Positions 7,913-42,694 of a stretch of 64,000 nt of DNA are shown here, in pieces; the stretch's first letter is position 1, and every line of letters begins with the position of its first letter. A model generated the notes under the pieces. That model had not been told where the DNA came from, searched no databases, and worked only from the letters and a program-made list of their open reading frames with translations. The position numbers and the translations under genes were made by a program. This DNA is from a virus. Location of the stretch: the IMG/VR virus record IMGVR_UViG_3300042549_000858, positions 1 through 64,000 of that record. One strand, written 5' to 3'.

Positions 7913-7914
7913 AA

Positions 7915-10353
7915 TTAACCTTCATCAAGCAGATCAAACACCGATTTTGCACTACCGCCGCTAGTTGCGGAAGCCATATCTCCACGTTGGTCCCGTGCGG
8001 CACTCAGTGCGTCCCCGATTGCAGATTGACGCATTTGATTAAATTGATACTTACCTTGAATAGGCCCATACTGTTGTATGAGTTCCGCTTCTTTTCGCGT
8101 GTTTCTTGGGTTGTTATCAAAGTCAAGTGTGGCTTTACGGCGTACGTCCATCATGCGTGCATCTGCGGCTCTAGCTTGAGCATCTGCGGCTTTATTGCGG
8201 TAGTCCATAAGCGAACCAAACTGACGCTCTTTTTGTGCCAGTTGTGCGGCACCGAGGCCAGCTTGTGAGGCGTATTGTTGACGTTGTACGTCAAGTTGTT
8301 CACGCTGTACTGCAATTTGTTTATCCACTTGTTGGAACTGACGTACTTGGGACGCCCAGCCTAGGGCTGTAGCGTTATCACCCTTACGTTGCGCCATTTG
8401 GAACTGTTGCATAGCAATCGCAAGTTTTTGCTGATTGTCATCTGCGGCTTGAGCCAACTCATTAGTCTTAGCAACCGATGCGGCAAGTGTTGGAGATGCT
8501 TTTGCGGCACTTCGTATTACACCAAAGATACCTTGGTTACCTACTTGACCGGGTTCAGCGGCATTAGCCGCCATTTGAAACCCAAACTCAGCCAATGCTT
8601 TACCAAAGCCTTTGTCTTTAATTTCTTTTGAACGCCCGGCAGATTTCTCCATCAGTTTGTTCAATGTGTCCATGTCGCCCTTGCTCTCGGCTTTGAGCAT
8701 GTTGCGCATTTTGGTGTACTCATCCATTAAAGAAACAGCAGGCACGCCACTATCTTTGGACAACTTAGTAATGCCAGAGAAAATCTCTGGGCTAACTTTT
8801 GGTTTGTCTTTGGTTTCAAAGTCCACGCGGCGCGTCGCAGTAGCGGCGTTGTATGGTTCACTAACCGAAGTCGTTGGTTTAGCTACCGGAGCTGTTGGCT
8901 TATCTACAACGTATTTACCATACATAATGTCTTGCACATCTGAAAGCCCTACAGTCTTTCCTTGGTCTTTTAAATCACTAACTATTTTTTGCACTTCACT
9001 CATAGGAAGTTTTTTAGGTGTCTCGTATGTACCAATTGAGCCACCAAATTGTGGGTCTGTAATTAAGTCACCGTCGGCAAACGCAAGGATGCCGCCATTA
9101 GCGGCTTGGACTACGCCCTGCTGTTGGTCTTGTGGAAGTTGGTTATACGCCGCTGCCATACCACCACGCTCGGATGCACGCATGGCAAGTTCTTGTTGGG
9201 CGGCTACTAACTCAACCTGTGTTGTAGGGTTCTGAATAATTGACTGGAGTTGCTCATCTGACAACTTGTCAACCTGTGCCGCCATAGCCGCAGGGTCGTT
9301 CATTTTGTCGGAAATGTCCCCACCCGCACCAAACGCCAAGCCACCCTCAGCCATCTTGCTCAGACCATAGGCACCCATACCCAGACCAGCAAGCTGACCC
9401 ATAGTACTTGGAGGTGCTTGATAGACCTGAGACTGTGTGTTCATACCCATCGGGGTACCACGAACCAAGTTAGACATGTAACTAAGTTGTTGGTATGGAT
9501 AGTTCTTCTGTGTGAGAAAGTCTTGGTATGCAGTGTCCAGACCTCTTTGTTGCTGGGCTTGCTGTTGTGCGCCGTACTGGTTTTGCAAGGCGTTGATACC
9601 CATGCCCTGCTGATACTGGCTCTGCCCTAAGTTACCCAACTGACCAGCGGCTTGATTAGCCATGCCGTAGCCTGCAAGTTGATTCTGCAAGTTCTGGTTG
9701 TACTGGTTCTGCGCATTGCTAAATGCTGTGTTGTAGCCCTGACCAACAATCTGATTGATACCTGTATTGCGGTTGCGCTCGTTTTCAGCCGCCATGATCG
9801 CTTCGCGTGAGCCACCAAATGCACCTGCTTGAGTAGCCGCAGACTGTTGTCTAGTACCGCTAATGTCGTACGCACGGTTTGCTTCAGCAATTTGAGGAGC
9901 CAAAGACATCTGCAAGTAGGGGTTCATGTACCCACCGACTTGATTCTGGAATCCTCCGGTCGTAGACTGACCAGCTACATCAAACCCACCCAAACCCGCA
10001 CCGACCGATGCGGCAGTAGCCTGACCAATTTGAGGCGCAACCTTCATATTCTGTGCGCCTTGGAACGATTGCTGTTGCATCGGGTCAAACCCGGCAATGC
10101 GCTCGCCGCCATAAGGTTGGTATGGATTCTGTCCAAGATCAGTTACTGCCTTACCCTTGGACAGCACGTCTTGCGCATATGGTTTTGCCCAATCAGGTAA
10201 GTCTTGGGTTTGTGTAGTAGATGATGCGGGCTGTTGACTACCACCCCCACCATCACCAAGGATGAAACCCCCATCGGCTTTTAAATAGGTGGCGCTATCC
10301 CCAAGCGGCTCGCCTAATGCGTAGAGTTCACGGCGTGAATAACTTGTTCTCAT
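7915..10353 (-). CDS. Gln/Ala/Gly-rich internal virion or DNA-transfer protein
   Basis: 812 residues. About residues 70-330 are rich in Gln, Asn, Ala and Gly with many NxQN-type runs; the C-terminal half is charged and helical, with Gln-rich coiled-coil character. No enzyme motif is visible. Similar low-complexity proteins lie beside the large ejection proteins of podovirus-like phages, so a role inside the capsid or in DNA transfer is inferred. The start codon overlaps the stop of the upstream GNAT-like gene (ATGA), indicating coupled translation. Confidence 0.55.
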   Translation of the reverse strand: MRTSYSRRELYALGEPLGDSATYLKADGGFILGDGGGGSQQPASSTTQTQDLPDWAKPYAQDVLSKGKAVTDLGQNPYQPYGGERIAGFDPMQQQSFQGAQNMKVAPQIGQATAASVGAGLGGFDVAGQSTTGGFQNQVGGYMNPYLQMSLAPQIAEANRAYDISGTRQQSAATQAGAFGGSREAIMAAENERNRNTGINQIVGQGYNTAFSNAQNQYNQNLQNQLAGYGMANQAAGQLGNLGQSQYQQGMGINALQNQYGAQQQAQQQRGLDTAYQDFLTQKNYPYQQLSYMSNLVRGTPMGMNTQSQVYQAPPSTMGQLAGLGMGAYGLSKMAEGGLAFGAGGDISDKMNDPAAMAAQVDKLSDEQLQSIIQNPTTQVELVAAQQELAMRASERGGMAAAYNQLPQDQQQGVVQAANGGILAFADGDLITDPQFGGSIGTYETPKKLPMSEVQKIVSDLKDQGKTVGLSDVQDIMYGKYVVDKPTAPVAKPTTSVSEPYNAATATRRVDFETKDKPKVSPEIFSGITKLSKDSGVPAVSLMDEYTKMRNMLKAESKGDMDTLNKLMEKSAGRSKEIKDKGFGKALAEFGFQMAANAAEPGQVGNQGIFGVIRSAAKASPTLAASVAKTNELAQAADDNQQKLAIAMQQFQMAQRKGDNATALGWASQVRQFQQVDKQIAVQREQLDVQRQQYASQAGLGAAQLAQKERQFGSLMDYRNKAADAQARAADARMMDVRRKATLDFDNNPRNTRKEAELIQQYGPIQGKYQFNQMRQSAIGDALSAARDQRGDMASATSGGSAKSVFDLLDEG

Positions 10354-27672: not shown

Positions 27673-28397
27673 TATCTAATCCCCGTATTTTGTGGTAGGG
27701 GTGCTTCACGGTATTGCCCAGAGCGATAAGCATCGCTACGCTCCAGACCATCACCAAGGCGTTTAGCCAAACCAAGCGCTTCTTTGTACTTGAGTTCATA
27801 AAACGCCATAATGTCTGCCTCGCCCTTCATGTAGGTATACGCCTCAACTAGCGAGCCATACAAAAGGACTGTGTCAAAGTTATCGCCCAGCCAAGTCTGA
27901 CCAGAGGCCGTGACGGTAATTGACTCTGGGTAATAGTAATAATGCAACTCTACAGAGTAAGACGCATCTGGTGTTGGGCCAACAATGAATGAGAGTTCAT
28001 TGGTAATTGTGCTGGTGTTAACAGTTGGACCAAACAACGCGTAGTATTTTGGGATACCTGTATCCGAAGTTGGGTTTGGATACGCCTGACGGATGAAGTT
28101 CACATCCTTGTTTAGTAAATACTCATACGCGCCAGTAGCATCAATCACAGCCAAAGAATAAGTAGACAAGAAGTCTGTAGGGCAAGACAAATACTTATTA
28201 GCAGATGTAACAGACCCCGTCACGTTCTTACGCAACGACGGAAACTGAACAGAGTTGTATATACGCTGTTCAGCCTGAGTAATAAAGCGATTGATCTGAG
28301 TCGTTGAAGACACAGTACTCCCATCCGCCAAAGTGGTAGACGGAAACGTATTTTCTGTATACGTTTGAATCGCTGTTATTAGTTCCGTGTAGGTCAC
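27672..28397 (-). CDS. Head-tail adaptor-type protein
   Basis: 241 residues with GTG start at 28397, chosen because it overlaps the upstream stop (GTGA) and has AGAGGA about 8 bases upstream; another GTG lies 18 bases earlier. The opening TYTELITAIQTYTENTFPS and the later INRFITQAEQRIYNSVQFPS are signatures of phage adaptor proteins that join portal and tail. The C-terminal helices (LLYGSLVEAYTYMKGEADIM; FYELKYKEALGLAKRLGD) fit that fold. Confidence 0.65.
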   Translation of the reverse strand: MTYTELITAIQTYTENTFPSTTLADGSTVSSTTQINRFITQAEQRIYNSVQFPSLRKNVTGSVTSANKYLSCPTDFLSTYSLAVIDATGAYEYLLNKDVNFIRQAYPNPTSDTGIPKYYALFGPTVNTSTITNELSFIVGPTPDASYSVELHYYYYPESITVTASGQTWLGDNFDTVLLYGSLVEAYTYMKGEADIMAFYELKYKEALGLAKRLGDGLERSDAYRSGQYREAPLPQNTGIR

Positions 28398-28654
28398 GCC
28401 ATCGGTCCTCTGCACATAACGCCCTTAGTAGCCGCGCCAGCACCACGCATCTTGATGCCGGTAGTTTTGACGTTATCAGCGGCTGGATCACCAGCGCTTA
28501 CTCGTTGTGCAACTGTGTATGGGTTTACACTTTTAGCAGACAAAGTATTTGGGTCTACAACGTTTGCTTTTTTATTAGCTTCGCCATGTGGCTGGGCGTA
28601 GAAGGCACCATCACCAACTTCTTTACCCATTATTTTTTTACTAAAAGTAGCCAT
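28394..28654 (-). CDS. Small basic phage protein
   Basis: 86 residues. The N-terminus is MATFSKKIMGKEVGDGAFYA; Lys, Ala and Gly are frequent; the C-terminus is Gly/Met-rich (GIKMRGAGAATKGVMCRGP). Such proteins sit between head-tail genes in aquatic phages. The ATG overlaps the stop of the preceding small gene by one base (TAATG), and the stop overlaps the adaptor GTG start. Function unknown. Confidence 0.55.
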   Translation of the reverse strand: MATFSKKIMGKEVGDGAFYAQPHGEANKKANVVDPNTLSAKSVNPYTVAQRVSAGDPAADNVKTTGIKMRGAGAATKGVMCRGPMA

Positions 28655-28833
28655 TATTTGCCCCTTTGGTTTGCAACGCGAGCCATGTTACGCCCCATAG
28701 ACTTCATCATGTCGGTTGTTACACCACCCTTTTTGAGCTTAGTCATAGGCTTGCCGGGATGCAGTTTCTTTTCGTGCTTGTGCACAGCACCTGCGATCAT
28801 TTTCTTATCCTGTTTTAAGTCTTTCTTGTCCAT
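28654..28833 (-). CDS. Small Lys-rich phage protein
   Basis: 59 residues, starting MDKKDLKQDKKMIAGAVHKH and ending RNMARVANQRGK. An AGGAG site lies upstream of the ATG (28833). The pattern HKHEKKLHPGKPMTKLKKGG recurs in small proteins of this phage group. It is strongly basic and may bind nucleic acid or fill a structural niche. Function unknown. Coupled to the next gene by TAATG. Confidence 0.6.
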   Translation of the reverse strand: MDKKDLKQDKKMIAGAVHKHEKKLHPGKPMTKLKKGGVTTDMMKSMGRNMARVANQRGK

Positions 28834-29273: not shown

Positions 29274-30218
29274 CTACCTCCCGATGTAGGTCTGTCTAGG
29301 AACCAAACGTAATGCTGCCTTCTCATGATCTTCGTACGCGGCAAGTTCCCAAGCCTCGTCATACTGCGCCTTTAACATGCCAATTCGCTCCATACCCTGT
29401 GGTACTTTGCCAGCGATATAGTACGACAGCCCAGCCGCCATACAAGGAATAAATCTAAACGGCACGTCCATAATGTTCACACCACCACCAGCATCCTGAG
29501 TGCGGCGTAGACGCCAATACACAAATGTGTATGCTTGCGAGTTATCAGGAGTAGGCCAAACAGTTATGGCTGGAACTTGTTGCCAGTACACAGTAGCCGC
29601 AGCCGTATGAGCCGCCGCAATAGTGTTTTGCTGACCACGGAAACAGTTGTACAAAGTACCGCTAATAGCGTTTGTGTTCTGGATGATGTATCCGTAATTG
29701 ATAATCTCGTTATCAATCTTGATAAAGCCTGATGCGGGTAAACCCGTAACATCACTCAGCACGATCGTGTCTGATGTACTTGTGATGGTTGTAGTCAGCG
29801 TAGATGTTATAGGCGAAGTCTGCCCGTTGTAGCGCTGAATCCAAACCTGAATAGGTCTGGCTTGGGTTAACTTGTTTGGGATCGTTGCGTAAGTAGAAAC
29901 ACTAATACGCGTGATTGTCAGGTCGGCTTGGTTGGTTGTGTTGTTTGCGTCTGTACGAATCAAATGCTCAAGCAAGTCAATCGTATCGTTTGGCAGGGCG
30001 TAGGTGTTCTGACCGGGAACTAGAGTGATAGACCCCGGCTCAATAGTCCACATATTGATACCACGGTTTGCCCAATCAGCAAACATGATGTTGAGACTAC
30101 GACGTGCAGTGCGCAGGTCATATCCAGTGCGCAGTTCACTACCGGCGCGTTCAAACGCCTCCTCGACCAACTCAGTGAGGTCGAGGTTAAAGCCTACTGC
30201 GCCTGACGTATTTGCCAT
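29274..30218 (-). CDS. Head-tail connector / tail-tube-type adaptor protein
   Basis: 314 residues. The N-terminal helices (LTELVEEAFERAGSELRTGY; LRTARRSLNIMFADWANRGI) followed by strands (SITLVPGQNTYALPNDTIDL) are typical of phage proteins docking below the portal. A beta-rich insertion (about 150-190, TTTITSTSDTIVLSDVTGLP) and a C-terminal helical part follow. It starts one base inside the upstream small gene's stop region. Confidence 0.65.
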   Translation of the reverse strand: MANTSGAVGFNLDLTELVEEAFERAGSELRTGYDLRTARRSLNIMFADWANRGINMWTIEPGSITLVPGQNTYALPNDTIDLLEHLIRTDANNTTNQADLTITRISVSTYATIPNKLTQARPIQVWIQRYNGQTSPITSTLTTTITSTSDTIVLSDVTGLPASGFIKIDNEIINYGYIIQNTNAISGTLYNCFRGQQNTIAAAHTAAATVYWQQVPAITVWPTPDNSQAYTFVYWRLRRTQDAGGGVNIMDVPFRFIPCMAAGLSYYIAGKVPQGMERIGMLKAQYDEAWELAAYEDHEKAALRLVPRQTYIGR

Positions 30219-30453: not shown

Positions 30454-30687
30454 TTACCTAAAATTTGCGGTTTTCTTAGCAACACTTTTTGGTTGCGCTA
30501 CGAATTGTTTTCCGGCTTTTTTGCCAGCGCGTTTCGCACGCGTTGTTGCAGCATACTCAGCAGGGCTGAGACTTTTGATCGCAGCTTCTGGAAGGTATCG
30601 CTCACCTGTTTTACTAGACGGTTTTCCACTTTTGGTTCTCCATTTTTGGTCACCCCAGTTTTTTAAGGACTGCTGTGGCGCTTTCAA
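30454..30687 (-). CDS. Small basic phage protein (TTG start)
   Basis: 77 residues. It starts at TTG, overlapping the upstream stop (TTGA). The sequence QKWRTKSGKPSSKTGERYLP followed by LSPAEYAATTRAKRAGKKAG is a conserved pattern in small proteins of cyanophages and other aquatic phages. It is very basic, so DNA or RNA contact is possible. Function unknown. Confidence 0.6.
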   Translation of the reverse strand: MKAPQQSLKNWGDQKWRTKSGKPSSKTGERYLPEAAIKSLSPAEYAATTRAKRAGKKAGKQFVAQPKSVAKKTANFR

Positions 30688-30959
30688 TCTCGGTAACCTC
30701 CGCCCGATGCCTTGTACTTCTTGGCTACAAGCTGGGCCTTACGTGCTGACCATTGTCCCGCACCGGTACCTTGAGTTGCTGCGGCTTTTACCTGAGACAC
30801 AATCCGCTTACGCAGACTGGGTTTTGTGTAGTTGCCAGCGGCGTTAACTTTCCCACCCTCGGCGTACTGTGTGAAGTCGGTGTCATCCCTTCGGGCAGTC
30901 TTCTTGCCTTTGGGCATTTTGGAAGGGCGCATAGCGCCCATACCGCGACTTGACATCAT
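30684..30959 (-). CDS. Small basic phage protein with GQWSARKAQL motif
   Basis: 91 residues. The C-terminal half (KPSLRKRIVSQVKAAATQGT, then GAGQWSARKAQLVAKKYKAS) matches a widespread family of small uncharacterised phage proteins, probably the one known as DUF5872 (from memory). The N-terminus is Met/Lys-rich. It starts directly after the stop of the upstream gene (TAAATG). Function unknown. Confidence 0.6.
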   Translation of the reverse strand: MMSSRGMGAMRPSKMPKGKKTARRDDTDFTQYAEGGKVNAAGNYTKPSLRKRIVSQVKAAATQGTGAGQWSARKAQLVAKKYKASGGGYRD

Positions 30960-31271
30960 TTAGTACATCTTCCCACGGGTTTTCCCCTTAGTGCAACATC
31001 CGTCTGCACGAGCAGAAGCCGAACCACCTTTAGCGTAGGTGTCGCCCATAGCATTTGTTTTGCTAGTCTCTGTATCGCTTGACGGCGGCTTTGCAAAACC
31101 TTCTGCTGGGTTTCTACCCGCACGTTCGGCTGGGGGTTTAGCGTAACCTTCAGCCTTTAGAGGCTTACCGTCAACGCGAATACCACTGCCGGGTTCTTGG
31201 GCCTTTACTTTCCCTTTAGGGATTGGCTCATCCACCGGTGTGGAGTCTTCGTATTTATAGTCTTTAGCCAT
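30960..31271 (-). CDS. Small Lys/Pro-rich protein with shared C-terminal tag
   Basis: 103 residues, starting MAKDYKYEDSTPVDEP at the ATG 2 bases after the upstream stop, with GGAAGG upstream. The middle is Pro/Lys/Gly-rich and contains repeats of the type AEGYAKPPAERAGRNPAEGF. The last 18 residues (SARADGCCTKGKTRGKMY) resemble the C-terminus of three nearby small proteins. No enzyme motif. Function unknown. Confidence 0.55.
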   Translation of the reverse strand: MAKDYKYEDSTPVDEPIPKGKVKAQEPGSGIRVDGKPLKAEGYAKPPAERAGRNPAEGFAKPPSSDTETSKTNAMGDTYAKGGSASARADGCCTKGKTRGKMY

Positions 31272-31273
31272 GA

Positions 31274-31996
31274 TTAACACATCCTTCCTTTGGTCTTACC
31301 TTTTTGAGCAATACCATCAGCGCGTTTAGAAGCAGAGGAAGCCATGCCGCCAGAAGCCATCTTCTTGACTGCGCCGCCTTTTTTGAAGCCGTCTTCACTA
31401 CCACGGGGGCGTATAGGTACATTGAACGCGCCAGCGAGGTTACGAACGCGGTCAACTTCAGAAGTATCACGCTCCATGCCTGTGGGGGCACGAGACACAT
31501 AGTTACGCATACCTTCTTCGGTAGTGCTGTTGGCTTGTGGCGTACGGCGGGGCACATAGTTACGCATACCTTCAGCAGTCGTACTGTCTGCCTGTGGTTG
31601 GGTTGGCATAGTTACACCACGGCCAGCGCCAGCCATTGAAGTTGTACGAGTACCACGACTCATACCAGCCTCAGCATTACGAGGATCACGGGGACGAGTG
31701 CCACGACTCATACCAGCTTCATCGTCAGCAGAAATGGTAGACCTAGAACTGGGAGTGGGAGTGGGAGTGGTTGCGCGTGCGCGTGAAGCCGTTGGGCTAG
31801 TACGGGGGCCTGAGTTGCGGTAGTTTTCGTCGGGTTCTTTCTCAGACATGCCAGTATCTCTACGTGGCAAGTCCTTGATACCTTCAAAACCTTCGGTGTC
31901 CATACCAGATGTGTCCGAACCCTTCTTGCCTTTAGACAACATCATGCCCAAGGCTCCAAGAGCGGCTAACCCTGCTAAATCTTTTCCTCTTGCCAT
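31274..31996 (-). CDS. Low-complexity protein with shared C-terminal tag
   Basis: 240 residues from the ATG at 31996, which follows AAGGAG; an in-frame start further upstream lies inside the neighbouring gene. It begins with a short hydrophobic segment (LAGLAALGALGMMLSKGKKG). The middle contains near repeats: GMSRGTRPRDPRNAE / GMSRGTRTTSMAGAG and EGMRNYVPRR / EGMRNYVSRA. It ends SKRADGIAQKGKTKGRMC. Function unknown; the N-terminal segment could anchor it to a membrane. Confidence 0.55.
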   Translation of the reverse strand: MARGKDLAGLAALGALGMMLSKGKKGSDTSGMDTEGFEGIKDLPRRDTGMSEKEPDENYRNSGPRTSPTASRARATTPTPTPSSRSTISADDEAGMSRGTRPRDPRNAEAGMSRGTRTTSMAGAGRGVTMPTQPQADSTTAEGMRNYVPRRTPQANSTTEEGMRNYVSRAPTGMERDTSEVDRVRNLAGAFNVPIRPRGSEDGFKKGGAVKKMASGGMASSASKRADGIAQKGKTKGRMC

Positions 31997-32006
31997 GATG
32001 TGCTCC

Positions 32007-32519
32007 TTAGCAATATTTTTTAGCCATGCCGCCCTTGGCGAGCATTTTACCTTTAGTCTTACCTTTAACGGCAACACCATCGGCGCGAGAAGAAGCGGAA
32101 CCGCCAGCAGCCATTTTCTTCATGCCGCCTTTTTTCATACCCGCCATATCAGCCATAGGGGTAGGCTTTTTCATGCCGTCCTTAGCAGTACTCATACCGG
32201 CCTTCATTGTTGGCTTGCCCATTGCTGAAGGCTTTGCGTCCTTCTTCTTAGCCATCATTGCCATAAATCCGGGATTCATTTTTGTAGCCATACGGCCTCC
32301 TTGTTTAAAAAGTGCCATTGCGCCATGATCGGTCTTTGGCTGGTTTACTACTTGACGATCTGCTCTAGTGCCACTGCCACCAGAGCCAAACTTCATTCCC
32401 TTACTCTTGTCGCTGAACTCAGCGCCAACAGACTGGGGTACACCCACTTTCTTGGCAAACCCTTTGTTGTGGGCTACCGCGTCCATGAATTTCTTTTGTT
32501 TTTCACTCACCGCTGGCAT
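32007..32519 (-). CDS. DUF3008-like N-terminus, Met/Lys/Gly-rich protein with shared tag
   Basis: 170 residues. The start PAVSEKQKKFMDAVAHNKGF resembles the DUF3008 family of small phage proteins. A long Met/Lys/Gly-rich stretch follows (MKKPTPMADMAGMKKGGMKK). Near the C-terminus is the tag SSRADGVAVKGKTKGKM, followed by 11 more residues ending KKYC. Overlaps the small holin-like gene upstream by 17 bases. Function unknown. Confidence 0.55.
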   Translation of the reverse strand: MPAVSEKQKKFMDAVAHNKGFAKKVGVPQSVGAEFSDKSKGMKFGSGGSGTRADRQVVNQPKTDHGAMALFKQGGRMATKMNPGFMAMMAKKKDAKPSAMGKPTMKAGMSTAKDGMKKPTPMADMAGMKKGGMKKMAAGGSASSRADGVAVKGKTKGKMLAKGGMAKKYC

Positions 32520-32700
32520 CTTTGTTCCCCTTGCGGTTGAACCAGCCTTGTACCGTATTGGTTTCCCAAATACGAATACCCACCCAAATAATACTTAGGA
32601 TGGCGGATAGTGAAGGTAGCATTTCGGTAAGTGTTCCAATAACCGTGATGAGCGACAGCCCATCAATGAATTGTTTAGCAGTTTCGTGGTTATCAGTCAT
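32503..32700 (-). CDS. Second holin candidate (T7 class II-like)
   Basis: 65 residues. The order is a short polar N-terminus (MTDNHETAKQFIDG), two closely spaced hydrophobic helices (LSLITVIGTLTEMLP and LSAILSIIWVGIRIW), then a charged tail (NRKGNKDASGE). The segment SIIWVGIRIWETNTVQ resembles T7-type small holins. It lies about 17 kb from the lysozyme gene in the same leftward block. A lysis role is therefore plausible, not shown. Confidence 0.55.
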   Translation of the reverse strand: MTDNHETAKQFIDGLSLITVIGTLTEMLPSLSAILSIIWVGIRIWETNTVQGWFNRKGNKDASGE

Positions 32701-32701
32701 T

Positions 32702-33013
32702 TCAGCACATCCTGCCTTTAGTCTTACCCTTTTGGGCTATACCGTCTGCGGAGTTCACATACCCACCATCAGCGCAGTTCCACGCTCTAAGGCTCTTGTT
32801 GATCCTAGAGTTCGGGTCGTTCGCTGTTTTTGCGGATGTCAATTTCTTTTTCATCCCACTCATACGGGCGCAAAAAGAGTCGCGCCTTGAGCCGCCCTCG
32901 GGTTGCGGCGGTTTCAAGTTGTGCCCTTCGCGTTTCGCAGAGGCTCGGCCCTTGGCGTTCAGCCCGCCGTTGGGGTTCTTGCCTTCTTTGCGAGTCCATG
33001 CGGCACTAGCCAT
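32702..33013 (-). CDS. Conserved small basic phage protein (DUF6321-like) with shared tag
   Basis: 103 residues. WTRKEGKNPNGGLNAKGRAS, then LKPPQPEGGSRRDSFCARM and KKLTSAKTANDPNSRINKSL, form a very widely conserved phage pattern, probably DUF6321 (from memory). It ends SADGIAQKGKTKGRMC, the tag shared with three neighbours. Highly basic with conserved Cys; might bind DNA. Function unknown. Confidence 0.65.
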   Translation of the reverse strand: MASAAWTRKEGKNPNGGLNAKGRASAKREGHNLKPPQPEGGSRRDSFCARMSGMKKKLTSAKTANDPNSRINKSLRAWNCADGGYVNSADGIAQKGKTKGRMC

Positions 33014-33290
33014 AGAACACCGTAATAGATGAGCTAGTTGGTAAGACTACATAAAACCCGTTTTCAAACAAAACGCCTTCTGCGGGAATTAGCGTAGCAA
33101 TAACAGCAGTGTTAGTTGTAACGTGCAGGGTTAAAGAGTTCCTACCAGCATTTGTAGTAGCGTTATCGTAAAACTGAATTTCTCCAGCCGTGCCACCGGG
33201 GGCTACTTGATAGCCACGAACTCTGGTTCGACCCGCATACCCTACACCACTTGCGTCTAAATGGACGGCTTTTACGTCGGTTTGCATCAT
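33006..33290 (-). CDS. Small beta-rich virion protein
   Basis: 94 residues from the ATG at 33290, chosen because AAGGAG lies 7 bases upstream; an in-frame TTG two codons earlier is less likely. It has alternating strands (VKAVHLDASGVGYAGRTRV; RGYQVAPGGTAGEIQFYDN; GVLFENGFYVVLPTSSSIT), like small decoration proteins. It lies just after the terminator at 33306-33330. Confidence 0.55.
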   Translation of the reverse strand: MMQTDVKAVHLDASGVGYAGRTRVRGYQVAPGGTAGEIQFYDNATTNAGRNSLTLHVTTNTAVIATLIPAEGVLFENGFYVVLPTSSSITVFYG

Positions 33291-33305
33291 AATCAATCTC
33301 CTTGT

Positions 33306-33330
33306 TTAAAAACAAGGGGCCGAAGCCCCT
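33306..33330 (-). terminator. Rho-independent terminator after the 33339-34028 gene
   Basis: Read on the minus strand: AGGGGC, TTCG tetraloop, GCCCCT, then TGTTTTT. The UUCG loop makes this a very stable hairpin. It follows the stop of the gene at 33339 and precedes the AAGGAG of the next gene, so it should reduce read-through into the small-protein genes. Confidence 0.75.
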
Positions 33331-33338
33331 AGGACTGA

Positions 33339-34028
33339 TTAGTCAAAGTTACCGTATGGGTAAGTTGTAGTTGTACCGATGTTGCCATCAGGCTGTGTAT
33401 AGCGGATTGTGAAGTAGTAAGTACCACCGGTAATCGCCACGTTAGTGCCGTTAATAGACGCTACTGTGAACACAACTTGCGACAGGTTTGGCTCGCCGTT
33501 TATCTGAATGATATCGGTAGAAGTTGCTTGCTGGTTAGCCAACTGAGTTGCAGTAAACGCATTGAATGATTGACGACCCACTGCTGGAGAAGTTAATACT
33601 GCTGTTTGTGCGTATGTGCAAGTGCCTGCGGCAGCAACATAATTGTTGCTTACGTTAACTTGGACAGAAGTCAAAGTACCGCTTGTGAAGGTGGTGACAA
33701 CGCCAATGTCAACAAACATATCATTGATTTGGCTACCTGCGGGGAGGTAAGCAACATAACCACGGTACACGGTAGCAGAGTCAGCAGGGATGCTGGTTGC
33801 GGTCAGTGTGGTAGAAGTGCTTGGCGTGTAAACAGTTGCTGAACTGTTAGGGATGCCGTTTGAGGCAATAAAAATACCGGAAGAGCCACCATATCCAGCA
33901 GTGTTTGCTGTGGTGTTAGCAATGTTTAGGGTTGCAGTTTGTACTAAATCTACGTAACCTACGTTACGAAAATTACCAAAACGCTGTGTGCCAGATAGTA
34001 CTGGGCCTTCAAATGTGGAACGTGCCAT
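33339..34028 (-). CDS. Probable capsid decoration or minor head protein
   Basis: 229 residues, beta-rich. Its N-terminus ARSTFEGPVLSGTQRFG, then FRNVGYVDLVQTATLNI, resembles structural proteins encoded next to major capsid genes. It has its own strong promoter (34118-34145) and its own terminator (33306-33330), so its dose is probably set separately, as expected for an abundant capsid component. Confidence 0.55.
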   Translation of the reverse strand: MARSTFEGPVLSGTQRFGNFRNVGYVDLVQTATLNIANTTANTAGYGGSSGIFIASNGIPNSSATVYTPSTSTTLTATSIPADSATVYRGYVAYLPAGSQINDMFVDIGVVTTFTSGTLTSVQVNVSNNYVAAAGTCTYAQTAVLTSPAVGRQSFNAFTATQLANQQATSTDIIQINGEPNLSQVVFTVASINGTNVAITGGTYYFTIRYTQPDGNIGTTTTYPYGNFD

Positions 34029-34175: not shown

Positions 34176-35087
34176 TTAGTATGAACCTGAAGAGGCAAAC
34201 ATGCCTAAAGGATCAGACCAGCCGAACGAATAACGCTCGCGTGCCTTGTAGCGCACGTTGCCAGTATCGAAGTCACCGTCCATGCTGTTTTGCAACGGAG
34301 TACGGATAAAGTGCTTCAAACCGTTAGGTACGTCAGTTGTCAAGAACCAAGCGCTGGTGTCGGTCAAGTAATGGTTAATGGTGTATCCCTCTGGGATCGC
34401 GCCATTATTCTTGATCGCGTTGATGTCGTTGTTGTTAGTACCAACGCGGAGGCTGGTTTCTAACAGACGAGTAGCAACGAATTGCAGTGCTGGTGGGATG
34501 ATCAACTTCTTAGGCTTAGCAGCGATCAACAGTCCACGCTCATCAGTCCAAGCAGCGATCTGGATAACGGCGGCTTCCAAGGAAGTCTCGTTCAAGTCGG
34601 TTTGGGTAGATGGAGTGTTGGAGTTGACACCGCCTGCAACCAAAGGATGAGCAGTAGAGAACAAAGGTTGACCGTCGCCGCCTGTATACAGACCAGAGAA
34701 GCCATTGTTCAACACGGCAGCAGCTTTGATCTGCTTGGTGTAAGCCATAGCACGAGCCAAACCTTTGGTGTAACGAGCAGACAAGCTGTCGTACAAGTTA
34801 TCTTCAATCGCTTCTTCAGTGATTGAGAAACCCAAAGCAATGGTTTCGTGGTTGTAGCGAGTTGTCCATGCCTCTTGAGCATTATCATAAGCGATGGCTG
34901 AACCTTCGTTTTTGACTGGTGCGGCAGAGAAGCCAGACAGTTTAGTTTCTTCTTCGAACGAACGCTCAGAAGTCTCTGTTTCATAAATCTCTTTATGCTC
35001 TTCGCCGTAGCGAGCATACTCGAGACCAAACAAAGCATTCAAGCCGGGAAGGAGTTCTTTAAGTAGTTGTGCGCGTGAAATAGCCAT
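34176..35087 (-). CDS. Major capsid protein (HK97-fold, gpT-like)
   Basis: 303 residues. The pattern GLEYARYGEEHKEIYETETS, then ITEEAIEDNLYDSLSARYTK and HPLVAGGVNSNTPSTQTDLN, and C-terminal RVGTNNNDINAIKNNG, is that of phage major head subunits of the Mu gpT type. No N-terminal propeptide or protease domain is seen; a separate scaffold gene (36411) is present. It lies between a virion protein gene and a strong terminator. Confidence 0.85.
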   Translation of the reverse strand: MAISRAQLLKELLPGLNALFGLEYARYGEEHKEIYETETSERSFEEETKLSGFSAAPVKNEGSAIAYDNAQEAWTTRYNHETIALGFSITEEAIEDNLYDSLSARYTKGLARAMAYTKQIKAAAVLNNGFSGLYTGGDGQPLFSTAHPLVAGGVNSNTPSTQTDLNETSLEAAVIQIAAWTDERGLLIAAKPKKLIIPPALQFVATRLLETSLRVGTNNNDINAIKNNGAIPEGYTINHYLTDTSAWFLTTDVPNGLKHFIRTPLQNSMDGDFDTGNVRYKARERYSFGWSDPLGMFASSGSY

Positions 35088-37419: not shown

Positions 37420-37830
37420 TTATGCAGCACGGGTAATTCCGCGCGGGTCTTCGACAACGGCTTCGACCGAATCATCATTGATGATGCGAAATTCTCTACC
37501 GTGAATTTTCAAGCGGGTGCCTGAATTGGGGCGCACGATGACGAAATCACCTTGCTTGCAGCGGGCACCACTAGGGAACCGCGTCTTGTCTTGATATGCC
37601 TCTGGGCCTAACTTCACAACAAATAGTACTGGGGTCAGTACTTCTTCGTAGTACATCGTCTTACTGTCTTTAATCAGCCCAACTTCACTATCAGCATATT
37701 CCTCCATCGCCTCTGGTACTACGCAAAGCAACATAAAACCAGAAGGATCGGGCAACTGTTTGGCTTTCTCTTCGGCAGTCGTGTTGAGAATGCCAGAGAG
37801 GTCCACAGCGGATACATCAAACTCACTCAT
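37420..37830 (-). CDS. GroES-like co-chaperonin
   Basis: 136 residues from the ATG at 37830, which overlaps the upstream stop by 8 bases; an upstream in-frame start is unlikely. Features of phage GroES-like proteins: PSGFMLLCVVPEAMEEYADS, then VLFVVKLGPEAYQDKTRFPS, CKQGDFVIVRPNSGTRLKIH and REFRIINDDSVEAVVEDPRG. Such proteins replace host GroES on GroEL to fold the capsid protein. There is no phage GroEL in the window, so host GroEL is the likely partner. Confidence 0.8.
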   Translation of the reverse strand: MSEFDVSAVDLSGILNTTAEEKAKQLPDPSGFMLLCVVPEAMEEYADSEVGLIKDSKTMYYEEVLTPVLFVVKLGPEAYQDKTRFPSGARCKQGDFVIVRPNSGTRLKIHGREFRIINDDSVEAVVEDPRGITRAA

Positions 37831-38017
37831 CGGAATACTCCATTTTTTGCACGAGGTCTTTGACAAGTTGTTCTGCATGTGTCAGACCCCGGATGACACC
37901 GCAGACATGCCGATACTCGGCGAAGTCTTTTGCACCTCCTCCTGCGAGGAAGGAAACTTGATCACCACGGAGCTTGTCGATCTCCGAAGCTAAATACCCA
38001 AATGTTTGATTGCTCAC
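37823..38017 (-). CDS. Small helical protein next to portal (GTG start)
   Basis: 64 residues. The GTG start overlaps the portal stop (GTGA). It is a single helical pair (YLASEIDKLRGDQVSFLAGG; GVIRGLTHAEQLVKDLVQKM). Similar short proteins follow the portal gene in other aquatic phages. Function unknown. Confidence 0.6.
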   Translation of the reverse strand: MSNQTFGYLASEIDKLRGDQVSFLAGGGAKDFAEYRHVCGVIRGLTHAEQLVKDLVQKMEYSDE

Positions 38018-40500
38018 TTATTCTCCTTCTTTGCTCCGCGTTGAGCCGCCTGCACAGCCAGTTGTGCTCTATGCTTTGCGGCATCAAGACCTAAACGCAC
38101 GCCTTCGGTTTGCTGTTGTTTCTGTAACTGATCGCGTTTAGCAGCAGATGTGGCGCTAACTTGCATAGCTGCTATTTGCATCTGTGCTTCAATGCGGGAC
38201 TTCTCAATCTCCAACTGATCAGCCTTAGCCGCAGCATCAATCTGCTGCTTCTGCTGTTTCAACTGGAACTCTTGCATCTTCAACTGCAACTCTTGCTGTT
38301 GCATCTGAACGATTGGGTCCATAGCTTTCTGCTGTGCGGATTGTTGGGCGGCTTCTTGTTTGTTCTGCTGTAACAACTGTTGTGACGCTTGCGCGGCAGC
38401 GATGGCGATTTGATCTGCCATGTCTTTTGGTACGGGTGGATGGTCCTCGTGTTTGTCTTGCATCGGTGGCAACGAGAAGCCCATTGATTTCTCAACCTGC
38501 AAACGGTACTCAAACGCGACGTGCTCGTTGATATGCGCCATCGCAGACGCCATGATCGCCTGCGCTTGTGGATTGCCCTGCATCATCATTTGAATCTTGG
38601 GGTCTTGAACCGCAGACATATGCACAGCGATGTGTGCTTGGTGGTTCTGCTCAAGGAACGCCTTGACCGGCTTCATAGTCAGCAGGTTCATGTTCTCTTG
38701 CACAGGGTCAATCGGCTTGACATCATCCTCAGTCGGGATGAGTTTGTTTGCGTTCTTGATGCCCAACACTTCTAACATCTGACGATGCAAGAGTGGTAAG
38801 TCATACAACTGTGGTGCAGACTGCGCAAGCTGTAGTGCAGACTGATACTGAACAATCTTCTGCGCCATCGTTGACGCGTTAGGGTCGCTCACTGGAATCA
38901 CGTCTACTTTGTCGTAGTCGGACTTCTTCGCCTTGCGACTGCCATCAACTGGCTCGTAGTCATACTCATCAGGTGTGTAGTCGGCGATGATGACTTTGAG
39001 TAACTTGAACTCTTGTCTCATCGTGAAGTGCATACGCGCTTGCACAGCACCCATCACCTTGAGTGTTCTCTCAAGAATAGCCAGTGTTGTTCCCACAGGA
39101 GCTTGTGCGCTCATGTCGGACACGTTCATATCTCCACTCGATGCAAACGCACGACCTTCTTCCACGATCTGCTGGAACAGCGCAAACAAAGTTTGGCTTG
39201 GCTCTTTATAAGGCAGGGGGAGTATGTTGTCGCGGATAGAACCGCTTGGGACGTCTACGTCCCTGAACTCTCCGGGTTGAATCGGTGTGTCATCACCTTT
39301 AATCCGAAGTCCTCTTGATTTAAGTCCTCCGGGGAGATTAGATAAAGTGCCCGCGTCAACAAGTTGGCGGATGAGCATCGTTGCTGATTTTGCATATCCA
39401 CCAATGAGGTGGATGAGACCATACCCGTAGAAACCAAAACCGGGGATGTATTGGTAGTGGACAAAGTGCTGTCGCTTGAGGTGGAGTTCATCTCCTTCAT
39501 ACCAATTTCTCCTTATGGCTAACACTTTACGTGTGCCCTTTTCGATGGTTACAACATAAGGCAGACCGATGCCGGTCTCCTCGCCCTTTTTGTTCTTGTG
39601 CTCAAACCCCTTGAGGTCTAAGTCAATGTGCATCTCAAGCACGCGGTAACGCTCATCATCGGTTGCGGACAGGCCAGTCTCTTCGGCTTTCTGCTTCTCA
39701 ATGTCATCCAATTCAAACGTAGGCTCACCAATATCTACATCACTGTAGAACCCCGCTTCTTGTAACTTAACAATCTCATTCTCAGTCTTACGCATCACGT
39801 GCGTTACACGCTCTGCTGTCTCAAGGTTACTCGCACCGTAGGGCACAACGATGTCTTCAGCAGGTATGAACACCGCCATCTGACGCCCCTTGCTTGGGTC
39901 GTAGTACACCTTCTTAAATGCCGAACCAGTGATGGGCAAGTTCCACAACATTTTCTCGTGCTCTGGACGGTACTCATACATCACTTCCGTCAACTGGTAG
40001 TTCATGTCGTCGCGCACGCGAGCGGCAGCTTCTTCAATCTCAGGTGTGTCTTTGCCGATGATGACGGTCTTCACAGGTCCCATTGCTGGGAATGTTTCTG
40101 TAATTCCTTCAGACTGGAATCTGACCACAGACTCTGTAAGCATGGGGTGGAACACCCCGCACGCGCCCTGCCAAGGTTCTGTTCTGTCTTCGTAGTTCAG
40201 ACCCAGTAACTTCAAGCCATCTACATATGTCTTTATCCAATCTCTGCGGTCCATGATGTCTTTATCAAAATCCGCAACCAAATCTTCTGCCAACGACTGC
40301 AAGTCATTGTCGTCCATGTACTCTGCTAAGTTGGCATCAAAGTCATCAGCCGTTTCTTTCTCGGGCTTGAGGTCAATCTCTAGGCCGCCCATACGAATAC
40401 CAACCGATTCGGGGTCCTCAATCTCAATTTCAAAATCAGGACCCATGTCACTGATTCCTTCATCTAAACCTAAGGGGGCGGCGTATAAACTTTTTTCCAT
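38014..40500 (-). CDS. Portal protein (P22-type)
   Basis: 828 residues, a size normal for P22-like portals. Blocks typical of this family: DRRDWIKTYVDGLKLLGLNY, ITGSAFKKVYYDPSKGRQM, AEDIVVPYGASNLETAERVT, HYQYIPGFGFYGYGLIHLIG. The last about 150 residues are a Gln/Ala-rich coiled coil (LQLKMQEFQLKQQKQQIDAA), matching the C-terminal barrel region. It forms the dodecameric ring at the packaging vertex and binds the terminase encoded just before it. Confidence 0.9.
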   Translation of the reverse strand: MEKSLYAAPLGLDEGISDMGPDFEIEIEDPESVGIRMGGLEIDLKPEKETADDFDANLAEYMDDNDLQSLAEDLVADFDKDIMDRRDWIKTYVDGLKLLGLNYEDRTEPWQGACGVFHPMLTESVVRFQSEGITETFPAMGPVKTVIIGKDTPEIEEAAARVRDDMNYQLTEVMYEYRPEHEKMLWNLPITGSAFKKVYYDPSKGRQMAVFIPAEDIVVPYGASNLETAERVTHVMRKTENEIVKLQEAGFYSDVDIGEPTFELDDIEKQKAEETGLSATDDERYRVLEMHIDLDLKGFEHKNKKGEETGIGLPYVVTIEKGTRKVLAIRRNWYEGDELHLKRQHFVHYQYIPGFGFYGYGLIHLIGGYAKSATMLIRQLVDAGTLSNLPGGLKSRGLRIKGDDTPIQPGEFRDVDVPSGSIRDNILPLPYKEPSQTLFALFQQIVEEGRAFASSGDMNVSDMSAQAPVGTTLAILERTLKVMGAVQARMHFTMRQEFKLLKVIIADYTPDEYDYEPVDGSRKAKKSDYDKVDVIPVSDPNASTMAQKIVQYQSALQLAQSAPQLYDLPLLHRQMLEVLGIKNANKLIPTEDDVKPIDPVQENMNLLTMKPVKAFLEQNHQAHIAVHMSAVQDPKIQMMMQGNPQAQAIMASAMAHINEHVAFEYRLQVEKSMGFSLPPMQDKHEDHPPVPKDMADQIAIAAAQASQQLLQQNKQEAAQQSAQQKAMDPIVQMQQQELQLKMQEFQLKQQKQQIDAAAKADQLEIEKSRIEAQMQIAAMQVSATSAAKRDQLQKQQQTEGVRLGLDAAKHRAQLAVQAAQRGAKKENK

Positions 40501-40509
40501 TTTTAGTCC

Positions 40510-42075
40510 TTAAACGGTGTAGTACTTCTCACGGCGGTAGCCTTTGAAATATTTGGTGTCTTCTTGTTCATCATTAGGTAGACGCAAGTAACCCCCTGAG
40601 CGGAACCTCATCAGCGCAAGTGTCATTGAGTCAACCAAGTCATCGTGTTCCCCAGATGGAAAGGACGCAACTTCGTCCACGAGTTCTTCCGCCCATCGTG
40701 TCTGCGGTGCCCATACTTTACCCGATGCAAACAAATCTGCAACACTGTTTAGTCGGGTGATCTTGTCTTGTCCTTTTCCCGGACTGTATTCCTGCACTGG
40801 AATACCCATCGCACGGAACTCTTGAATCAACGGCGCACCTGCCGCTTTCTTCTCAACAAGGAACGAGTCTGGACTCCATTCTTCCCATTCTTCAAGCGCC
40901 CACTTCTTCAACTCAGGGAACTCCACACGCTTCTTACCTGCGTTGAGCAAGATGATGTTAGGTAGACCTCGGTCCTCGTCGTTGTAGAACACACCCCACG
41001 TAGTACACGCGGAGTAGTCGTTGACCTTGCGCATCTCATGCGCCGTATCCCAAGACTGGATGATGAACTCACATGATGGAGGCCGGTCGTCTTCCCACCA
41101 CTTCCACCACTCTCTCTTAATAATAGCGTTCGTATCCGAGGTAGGCTGCTGCTGGTACTGCGCCATCCACTTGCCTGAGGGCAATTCTTCCCGAAGCGCC
41201 TTCAATTCTTTCTCAGACCAGAACTCAGGCCACAACGGTTTGTCGCTAGGCAGAATCGCAGGCAACTCAATCACCTTCCACTCTTCACCACCGCGCTGGG
41301 CGGCGGACTTGAGCACCTGAGCAGTCAAATCTCGTAGCGACCAACGCGTCATAACTATAACAATCGCCCCACCCGGCTGTAGACGCTGACGCGGACCTGA
41401 CGTATACCACTCATACACCTTGTCGTACACCTCTGGGTTGTACGCACCGATCGCCGCTTCCTGTTCTGAGTGCGGGTCATCTATTATTAGTACGTCCGCG
41501 CCCTTACCAGTGACCGCACCACCCACACCAATCGCAAAATAGTCGCCGCCGTAGTTGGTATTCCACCGTCCAGCCGCTTTTGAGTCCGTTTGTAGCTCAA
41601 TCTGGGGAAAAATCCGCTTATAAACCTCGGAATCCACCAAGTTACGCACTTTTCTACCGAATCCCGTGGCTAATTCCGCTGTATGGGACGTCTGAATCAC
41701 CTTTTTCTGGGGAAATTTACCCAAAAACCAAGCTGGGAGCAGGTATGAGGCGAATTCTGACTTCGTATGACGGGGTGGCATGTTAATAATCAGGCGTTTT
41801 ACCTCACCATTAGCCACTTCCTCAAACGCTTGTGCCATTCTCTCGTGGTGTTTGCCATGAATAAACGCAGGCCAGACCGCATGAACGAACTCCATGAAGT
41901 CTTCTTGTGCCTTAACTCGGACCTTTCTAGTCCGCAGTTCTTCCAAAATGTCGGTGATGGCTCCCTGCTCATCTTTAGGGAACCTCTTTATTAGTGCGTG
42001 CAGTTGTACCGTAGTCAGGTTCTGGATTGCCTCAACCGCCTTCGGGTTTTGAAACAGACTATTCAGTGCTGTCAT
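40510..42075 (-). CDS. terL: Terminase large subunit
   Basis: 521 residues from ATG at 42075, chosen because GGAAG lies upstream and it overlaps the small-subunit stop by 17 bases; the frame extends a little further to a TTG. Packaging ATPase and nuclease: Walker A PPRHTKSE (100-107), Walker B LIIDDP (Asp199-Asp200), motif MTRWS; RNase H-type nuclease residues Asp343 (SWDTAHE), Glu408 (VEKKAAG) and Asp478-Asp479 (HDDLVDS). It cuts concatemers and pumps DNA through the portal. Confidence 0.95.
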   Translation of the reverse strand: MTALNSLFQNPKAVEAIQNLTTVQLHALIKRFPKDEQGAITDILEELRTRKVRVKAQEDFMEFVHAVWPAFIHGKHHERMAQAFEEVANGEVKRLIINMPPRHTKSEFASYLLPAWFLGKFPQKKVIQTSHTAELATGFGRKVRNLVDSEVYKRIFPQIELQTDSKAAGRWNTNYGGDYFAIGVGGAVTGKGADVLIIDDPHSEQEAAIGAYNPEVYDKVYEWYTSGPRQRLQPGGAIVIVMTRWSLRDLTAQVLKSAAQRGGEEWKVIELPAILPSDKPLWPEFWSEKELKALREELPSGKWMAQYQQQPTSDTNAIIKREWWKWWEDDRPPSCEFIIQSWDTAHEMRKVNDYSACTTWGVFYNDEDRGLPNIILLNAGKKRVEFPELKKWALEEWEEWSPDSFLVEKKAAGAPLIQEFRAMGIPVQEYSPGKGQDKITRLNSVADLFASGKVWAPQTRWAEELVDEVASFPSGEHDDLVDSMTLALMRFRSGGYLRLPNDEQEDTKYFKGYRREKYYTV

Positions 42076-42694
42076 TCGTTTCTTCCAACTCGCCACCCAC
42101 AAACCCCAACTCGGCGTCTATATCTATTACCTGAACTGCTGGTGCCTTGGACACCACATCCATACTCGTCACATTCTTAGCTTCCACATCAATGATGTCG
42201 CCCAAGTATTGAGACAGCTTACTTGCCAACTCATTCTCAAGTTCTTCTGTGGTTCTGTGCGTGACGTTAATTTCCACGCGTTCGGCAAACGCACCCACGT
42301 CGCTCATCTTGCCCAGCATCTCCAAGGCTTTCAGTTCAACCTTGTTGTCTCCGCAGTCGGACTTCTCTAACAGTTTGAGCTTAATGTATGACCGCACTTG
42401 CTGTGCGTTACGAATCACGTCAATATCGTACTCATCCAGCAAAGCCTTCAACATCAGTGCTTTGCCCGGTGTATTTATATCTGCCAGTGTCGTGGTGGGG
42501 TTGTCCATGAAAACTGAGCGTGCAGTCTTCTTGTCTTCTGTAGTTACGGCAGTCTCTGCATCATCCAATCCGTTCGCCCGCAAAAACTCTACCGTATTGA
42601 AAGCGAGTTTGGCCTTCTCATGGATGCTGAGAATCTCTTCGTTCGTCATTGCGAACGGGGCAGGAACGTTTAGTTCTGGTGTAACAAGAATCAT
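42059..42694 (-). CDS. Terminase small subunit-like protein
   Basis: 211 residues, the first gene of the leftward block. The helical centre (LLDEYDIDVIRNAQQVRSYI, then KALEMLGKMSDVGAFAERVE) resembles phage small terminases, which bind packaging sites and load DNA onto the large subunit. The C-terminus is acidic (ELEETNDSTE). The ATG has no good SD sequence. The call rests on position and this helical block. Confidence 0.65.
   Translation of the reverse strand: MILVTPELNVPAPFAMTNEEILSIHEKAKLAFNTVEFLRANGLDDAETAVTTEDKKTARSVFMDNPTTTLADINTPGKALMLKALLDEYDIDVIRNAQQVRSYIKLKLLEKSDCGDNKVELKALEMLGKMSDVGAFAERVEINVTHRTTEELENELASKLSQYLGDIIDVEAKNVTSMDVVSKAPAVQVIDIDAELGFVGGELEETNDSTE

Follow-up and report, generated by a model that had tools for sequence, protein, structure and literature searches.

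A lineage-specific, modular terminal peptide on unrelated small proteins at one structural locus of uncultured aquatic phages

In this study, a short peptide of the type ADG-x3-KGKT, carried by four neighbouring small proteins of an uncultured virus, was found to be a lineage-specific, locus-specific, selected, and modular terminal peptide (hereafter, the tag), and the phages that bear it are a large group of uncultured aquatic phages. Our interpretation, based on sequence comparison, is that one phage lineage uses it as a transplantable recognition peptide. The initial annotation had proposed a targeting or packaging signal, with conservation in relatives as a point to be decided. The tag proved to be conserved throughout the lineage, bound to one locus, selected, and present on many unrelated proteins, so the part of the proposal that describes a recognition signal holds. 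The part that concerns the capsid is kept here as a tentative reading, which we regard as close to an even call if slightly under it: the peptide would be recognised by a common partner and would recruit small proteins into the assembling head.

The window is the whole stretch of DNA that was analysed, 64,000 nucleotides long (positions 1 to 64,000), which is most of the 64,917-base virus record IMGVR_UViG_3300042549_000858. All four peptides, which had been described as variants of ADG-x3-KGKT-[KR]-G-[KR]-M, were found on the minus strand. A KGKT-type DNA pattern had exactly four matches in the whole 64,917-base record, all of them tag sites, and its reversed control had no matches in the same record. 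With a profile built from related tags, the four sites scored 51.6, 46.6, 44.2, and 43.2 bits, compared with 5.3 bits for the next-best site of the window and 11.5 bits for the best among 20 shuffled windows. The placement at or near the C-terminus was as described: three genes stop 3 residues after GKTxG, and the gene at 32007 extends 11 residues. The bodies are indeed unrelated, with blastp E values of at least 0.66 for every pair among the four tagged proteins; despite this, the 31274 and 32007 proteins have in common a K/M-x-GG-rich stretch adjoining the tag. Two gene starts had to be corrected: the 31274 gene begins not at 32080 but at ATG 31996, which is preceded by a Shine-Dalgarno-like AAGGAG, and the 30960 gene begins at ATG 31271 (Table 1).

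Table 1. Tag sites, tagged genes, and surrounding structural genes in the window.
Feature	Position	Strand	Remarks
Terminase gene	40510-42102	-	
Portal gene	38014-40500	-	
GroES-like match	37420-37878	-	Weak
MCP gene	34176..35087	-	Phage_capsid_4 / Mu gpT-like; upstream of cassette
Two small genes	33006..34028	-	229 aa and 94-96 aa; between MCP gene and cassette
Gene of tagged protein 1	32702..33013	-	103 aa; DUF6321 body (residues about 3-80), linker, tag; Pfam
Tag 1	32705..32749	-	ADGIAQKGKTKGRMC-COOH, core ADG to C-terminus, on DUF6321-type protein; pattern and profile
Gene of tagged protein 2	32007..32519	-	170 aa; N-terminal 40-residue module SEKQKKFMDAVAHN... of phrog_16759
Tag 2	32010..32084	-	ADGVAVKGKTKGKM then LAKGGMAKKYC; class with 10-13 residues more, nearly always Cys-ending
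Gene of tagged protein 3	31274..31996	-	240 aa; Gly/Ala-rich hydrophobic N-terminus, long low-complexity body; start corrected
Tag 3	31277..31321	-	ADGIAQKGKTKGRMC-COOH; pattern and profile
Gene of tagged protein 4	30960..31271	-	103 aa; Pro-rich body DSTPVDEPIPKGK...; start corrected
Tag 4	30963..31007	-	ADGCCTKGKTRGKMY-COOH; pattern and profile
Two small basic genes closing cassette	30454..30959	-	91 aa, phrog_17747; 77 aa, phrog_14910
Neck adaptor gene	29274..30218	-	SU10_adaptor PF24175; downstream landmark of cassette

The minus strand of the window carries a tailed-phage structural module, and the four tagged genes sit between its capsid and adaptor genes, the cassette beginning downstream of the major capsid protein (MCP) gene at a distance of about 1-3 kb. 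The 229-aa protein is cement-like, judged by its position and by analogy to the annotation of DSL-LC04. Both the 91-aa phrog_17747 gene and the 77-aa phrog_14910 gene are kept in the tag-bearing lineage. The location of the tagged genes between the capsid and cement genes and the neck adaptor fits a role in the virion. The minus strand also encodes a 2086-aa protein (1652-7912) with a Large polyvalent protein associated domain 39 (LPD39, PF18858), possibly a giant ejected or virion protein. A small protein at 28394-28654 (minus strand) ends RGAGAATKGVMCRGPMA, and its relatives end RGTGCATKGVMARGPMG (locus L173); by eye, the ends of the relatives look like the tag core RADGCATKGKTRGKM, but the region in the window scores only -0.7 on the tag profile, and it may be a distant cousin of the tag. 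The small gene at 28654-28833 (minus strand) is a mosaic with counterparts in loci L107 and L148, in which the C-terminal part GRNMARVANQ is common and the N-terminal part is either the MDKKDLKQDKKMI... module or, in other phages, an ADG...KGKT-like core.

The spread of the tag was followed in three blind IMG/VR scans, the counts of which are samples and no census. In the first scan, a degenerate DNA pattern for A-D-G-x3-[KR]-G-K-T matched at least 120 loci, and among the matches listed, 120 of 120 had two or more lineage neighbour genes. These neighbours included the adaptor in 103 of the listed loci, the 91-aa basic protein in 101, and the MCP in 50, the MCPs being about 80-97% identical. 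The GHT variant likewise matched at least 120 loci, and among the matches listed, 114 of 115 newly fetched loci had lineage genes. The RGGGCExRGKT variant was found at at least 120 loci, and 116 of the 120 among the matches listed belonged to the lineage; the four exceptions were short contigs with one lineage-type gene each. When 257 Gb of bacterial genomes were searched with the first pattern, 16 loci were found, and only the 4 with lineage genes were counted as genuine. A general bacterial motif was rejected on this basis, because the other 12 matches had no lineage genes and were chance-like. Sixteen long genomes contained 40 strict-pattern sites, which formed one short cluster per genome on one strand in 15 of them, and 0 matches to the reversed-pattern control; the sixteenth (L200) had no strict-pattern site but carried a KGRT variant. 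Of the 35 MCP loci with downstream sequence, 30 had strict tags that followed the MCP gene on its own strand; the remaining 5 had variant tags such as RGDGIASKGHTRGKMV, KGYTKGKIV, and GGIEIKGKTKGKM. Contigs carried 1 to 5 copies. No description of the tag was found among the papers searched for the motif string and for DUF6321, and tblastn with a 22-aa tag query gave no matches, the query probably being too short or masked. Ends like RGGGCEQRGKTKGR presumably occur in database entries as well.

The consensus of the tag is S-A-S-[KS]-R-A-D-G-[IC]-A-x-[KR]-G-K-T-[RK]-G-[KR]-[MFIY]-[VCIL]-COOH. D2, G3, G8, and T10 show little or no variation, which is partly due to the construction of the search pattern; positions 14-15 are hydrophobic, and conserved K/R positions lie within the Gly-rich peptide. 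The tag is strongly basic (median net charge +6), and the bodies have a median charge of +8 with 13% Lys. In 199 of 367 tags, the protein ends exactly 3 residues after GKTxG, with [KR]-[MFIY]-[VCIL]. A second class has 10-13 further residues with Cys nearly always at or near the end, and in a third class, proteins of about 65 aa carry the core close to their N-terminus (MAYTRSADGIAKKGKTEGKNLGDSGP...). Outside the main class, the core was N-terminal in 46 proteins and 8-24 residues from the end in 170, which means that the core need not always be followed directly by a free C-terminus. Only 3 main-class tags combined Cys at position 4 with Cys at the C-terminus, versus 37.6 expected (P 1.7e-23; P 1e-14 with one tag per contig). 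Because of the exact 3-residue spacing and this exclusion of Cys, the C-terminus was counted as part of the signal. The subtypes IAQxGKTRGKMC and CATKGKTKGRxV were both found inside single genomes, and thus the exclusion may reflect a residue contact or merely two tag subfamilies. The bodies are almost free of Cys (0.07%; loci L009-L206), whereas the tags often have one. A concerted K-to-H change was clustered inside genomes beyond chance (0.768 versus 0.618); as proof of co-evolution with one receptor it was rejected, because K and H types coexist in one genome. Linear peptides are usually predicted as unstructured when alone, and in the AlphaFold model of tagged protein 1 alone the tag was disordered, with pLDDT under 50 for residues 83-103. 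Anchoring, which the initial annotation had also offered, gained little support, as a hydrophobic N-terminal stretch was present in only 21 of 293 tagged proteins. Processing was a further suggestion of the initial annotation; a non-exhaustive search identified no head protease. The GQGR...KKT pattern for another common end was found at only 18 loci, with no clear sister tag among them.

The 356 distinct tagged proteins fell into 100-164 body clusters, depending on stringency. For 128 body representatives, Pfam recognised DUF6321 and gave three other single matches, all weak, and PHROGs recognised only the DUF6321-type and SEKQ-type bodies. The body of tagged protein 1 matched DUF6321 (PF19846) with an E value of 1.5e-19 and 70.8 bits, above the gathering cut-off of 28.5, and matches to this body were present in 509 phage records. 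Among the lineage loci, 94 copies of DUF6321 had no extension and 26 had the ADG tag, fused directly or via GGYV-type linkers; other copies end KEGG-x-VRGGGCE[IV]RGKTKGKMV. Because DUF6321 occurs without a tag and with two kinds of tag, the tag has been gained or lost, probably more than once, and the DUF6321 body is complete without it. The DUF6321 proteins of cyanophages and pelagiphages belong to the same family as this body; unlike tagged protein 1, those of the cultured phages MinM2 and HTVC115P stop at SLRAW[NK]C and have no tag. Some PHROG families with the annotation of virion structural protein also start with the SEKQ-type N-terminal module of protein 2, and this module matches jumbo-phage proteins as well; both matches weakly support a virion role. 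AlphaFold modelled tagged proteins 1 and 2 with low overall confidence and left the tag disordered; in protein 2, a 40-residue three-helix module reached pLDDT 85-96 and the rest was low. A fold search with the three-helix module of the 32007 protein found nothing significant. Tagged protein 4 had matches in all 6 tag-bearing genomes, some possibly via the tag.

Selection acts on the tag as a peptide. Tag pairs of the same contig had an amino-acid identity of 0.74, whereas the fourfold third-base identity at their same-residue codons was 0.408, versus 0.396 expected from composition. Because synonymous change is saturated, neither recent copying nor a DNA element can explain the tag core, and recent duplication or gene conversion was ruled out on the same ground. 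We therefore consider it highly improbable, almost to the point of dismissal, that the conservation is one of DNA or RNA, such as a repeat, a recombination element, or the ribosome-binding site of the next gene, translated by chance. This reading of the core is largely refuted: nucleotide conservation beyond the needs of the peptide was not found there, ADG...KGKT does not resemble a Shine-Dalgarno site, and the N-terminal copies have no similar adjacency to a start codon. The tag end is the place that speaks for it. Gly12 was encoded by GGA/GGG in 197 of 315 tags, compared with 43 of 317 for Gly3 and 27 of 317 for Gly8, Arg13 is often AGG, and in most cases the next ATG lies within a few bases of the stop. 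This codon bias and the adjoining ATG indicate that the tag end also serves the next gene as a Shine-Dalgarno-like site, and a ribosome-binding role is likely a second function of the last tag codons. At the tag-end codons of 32702-33013 and others, the ATG of the next gene overlaps or closely trails the stop.

Six long tag-bearing genomes had the structural module in common and differed in their early modules. The MCP was the most conserved protein, 83-91% identical among the six, 62-64% identical to tag-free relatives, and 70% identical to that of MinM2, which has one tag. Because only structural-module genes are common to all six, a phage-encoded partner of the tag would most likely be a structural protein; a host protein is also possible. 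Since the MCP is best conserved and falls to 62-64% in tag-free relatives, it is a reasonable candidate for the receptor. The 91-aa protein g91 (30684) was also considered as a receptor, as it occurs in 6 of 6 tag-bearing genomes and is absent from the compared relatives, yet it is found in other pelagiphages and roseophages and was unconvincing. Solved-structure relatives were sought for the MCP, the DUF6321 protein, the adaptor, and the portal, and none were found. HTVC023P-type pelagiphages, DSL-LC04, 023Pt_psg01, and MinM2/Pag-Yong1 resemble the tag lineage in structural gene order and have a homologous MCP (62-71%), TerL, and portal. No ADG tags were found in the scanned stretches of HTVC027P and DSL-LC04. 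Synechococcus phage MinM2 (L007) has a single tagged protein, MM2_5 (2274-3200), which ends GRDGCAKRGRTKGRFI at its stop codon. In DSL-LC04 (L006), the neighbouring small proteins at 7313-7657 and 7667-7918 (minus strand) end KKTRIC and KKTKIY, and relatives may thus use a different common end; by eye, the protein ending KKTRIC is like a body found with the ADG tag in L175. A cultured relative with the full tag system and virion proteomics were sought, and none were found.

In the recruitment reading, a protein of the late structural operon would carry the tag, usually as its last 15 residues, and the tag would be bound by one common partner, which we infer to be single. This partner could be a part of the assembling head, namely the inner face of the MCP shell, the scaffold, or the portal. 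The tag would load small accessory proteins of many kinds into the capsid, and these proteins might be delivered together with the DNA. A bolder form of recruitment, possible but doubtful, is a C-terminal capsid address code, in which an interchangeable 15-residue peptide is read by the inner face of an HK97-type shell and loads proteins for delivery; the subtypes would be ADG-I...C, ADG-C...V, GHT, and RGGGCE, and the cargo would be a fast-changing set of more than 100 kinds of small effector or DNA-associated proteins. Two observations count against loading into the head: relatives whose MCPs are 62-64% identical do without the tag, and the core also stands at the N-terminus or well before the end. 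In addition, the strongly basic tag could mean nucleic-acid binding.

The last point leads to the main rival, an unlikely one in our estimate, in which the tag is a nucleic-acid-binding tail that keeps small basic proteins attached to phage DNA or RNA, in the virion or not, for example for DNA condensation or protection late in infection. The charge of both tags and bodies, the Lys content of the bodies, and the K/R positions conserved inside a Gly-rich peptide agree with such a tail, but the full conservation of D2, G3, and T10 (partly a product of search construction) and the hydrophobic positions 14-15 are more like a shaped peptide. The exact C-terminal distance and the Cys exclusion would be unexpected for an electrostatic tail, and nucleic-acid binding alone leaves the confinement to one lineage unexplained. 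It is quite unlikely that the tag instead directs assembly outside the shell, by binding portal, neck adaptor, tail, or cement, or is the hub of a non-virion late complex. The SU10-type adaptor gene does lie just downstream of the cassette, and the lineage has kept both adaptor and portal; however, the extreme diversity and turnover of the bodies suit cargo better than fixed structural parts, and the copy number varies between contigs. A C-terminal degradation or host-interaction signal with a ClpX- or Tsp-like basic and hydrophobic end is very unlikely. The main class does place a basic residue and then two hydrophobic residues at the free C-terminus, an end that we take to resemble the ClpX signal of MuA. 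Such a signal is at odds with N-terminal or internal cores, with 12 conserved residues upstream of the end, and with the restriction of the tag to a single phage lineage and a single structural locus.

The capsid targeting sequence (CTS) of phage T4 and the cargo-loading peptide (CLP) of encapsulins are the systems closest to the tag in behaviour, by analogy and without homology. The T4 CTS is an N-terminal peptide of about 10 residues that guides proteins to the head core and is cut off by proteolysis (PMC9026906), and it may let T4-like phages incorporate various proteins into their capsids (PMC9026906). Like the CTS of the internal proteins IPI, IPII, IPIII, and Alt, the tag is a short peptide common to small proteins that are mostly basic and otherwise unlike each other, here encoded in the head-gene region, and CTS proteins vary between related phages as the tagged bodies do. 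Unlike the CTS, the tag has a different sequence, is not known to be processed, and is mostly C-terminal (199 of 367 in the C-terminal class and only 46 N-terminal). The encapsulin CLP is a short C-terminal, sometimes N-terminal, peptide on unrelated cargo that binds a hydrophobic pocket inside the shell (PMC7355545). Similarly, encapsulin cargo genes adjoin an HK97-fold shell gene, and the tagged genes adjoin the MCP gene, whose HK97 fold is deduced from its family. In contrast, encapsulins are not phages, no sequence similarity to the tag was shown, and binding of the tag by the MCP is hypothetical. Because the tag is mostly C-terminal and its binding to a shell is only hypothesised, it was assigned to neither system.

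If the address code were true, it would be a phage equivalent of the way encapsulins load their cargo. Almost none of the tagged proteins have recognisable relatives. Should the tag mark virion cargo, a one-line sequence rule would list the cargo of a widespread lineage of uncultured aquatic phages; the tag would also point to candidate proteins for host takeover or anti-defence and offer a small peptide with which foreign proteins could be loaded into phage heads. The tag makes a general question testable, namely whether tailed phages outside the T4 group have a common address peptide for their internal proteins.
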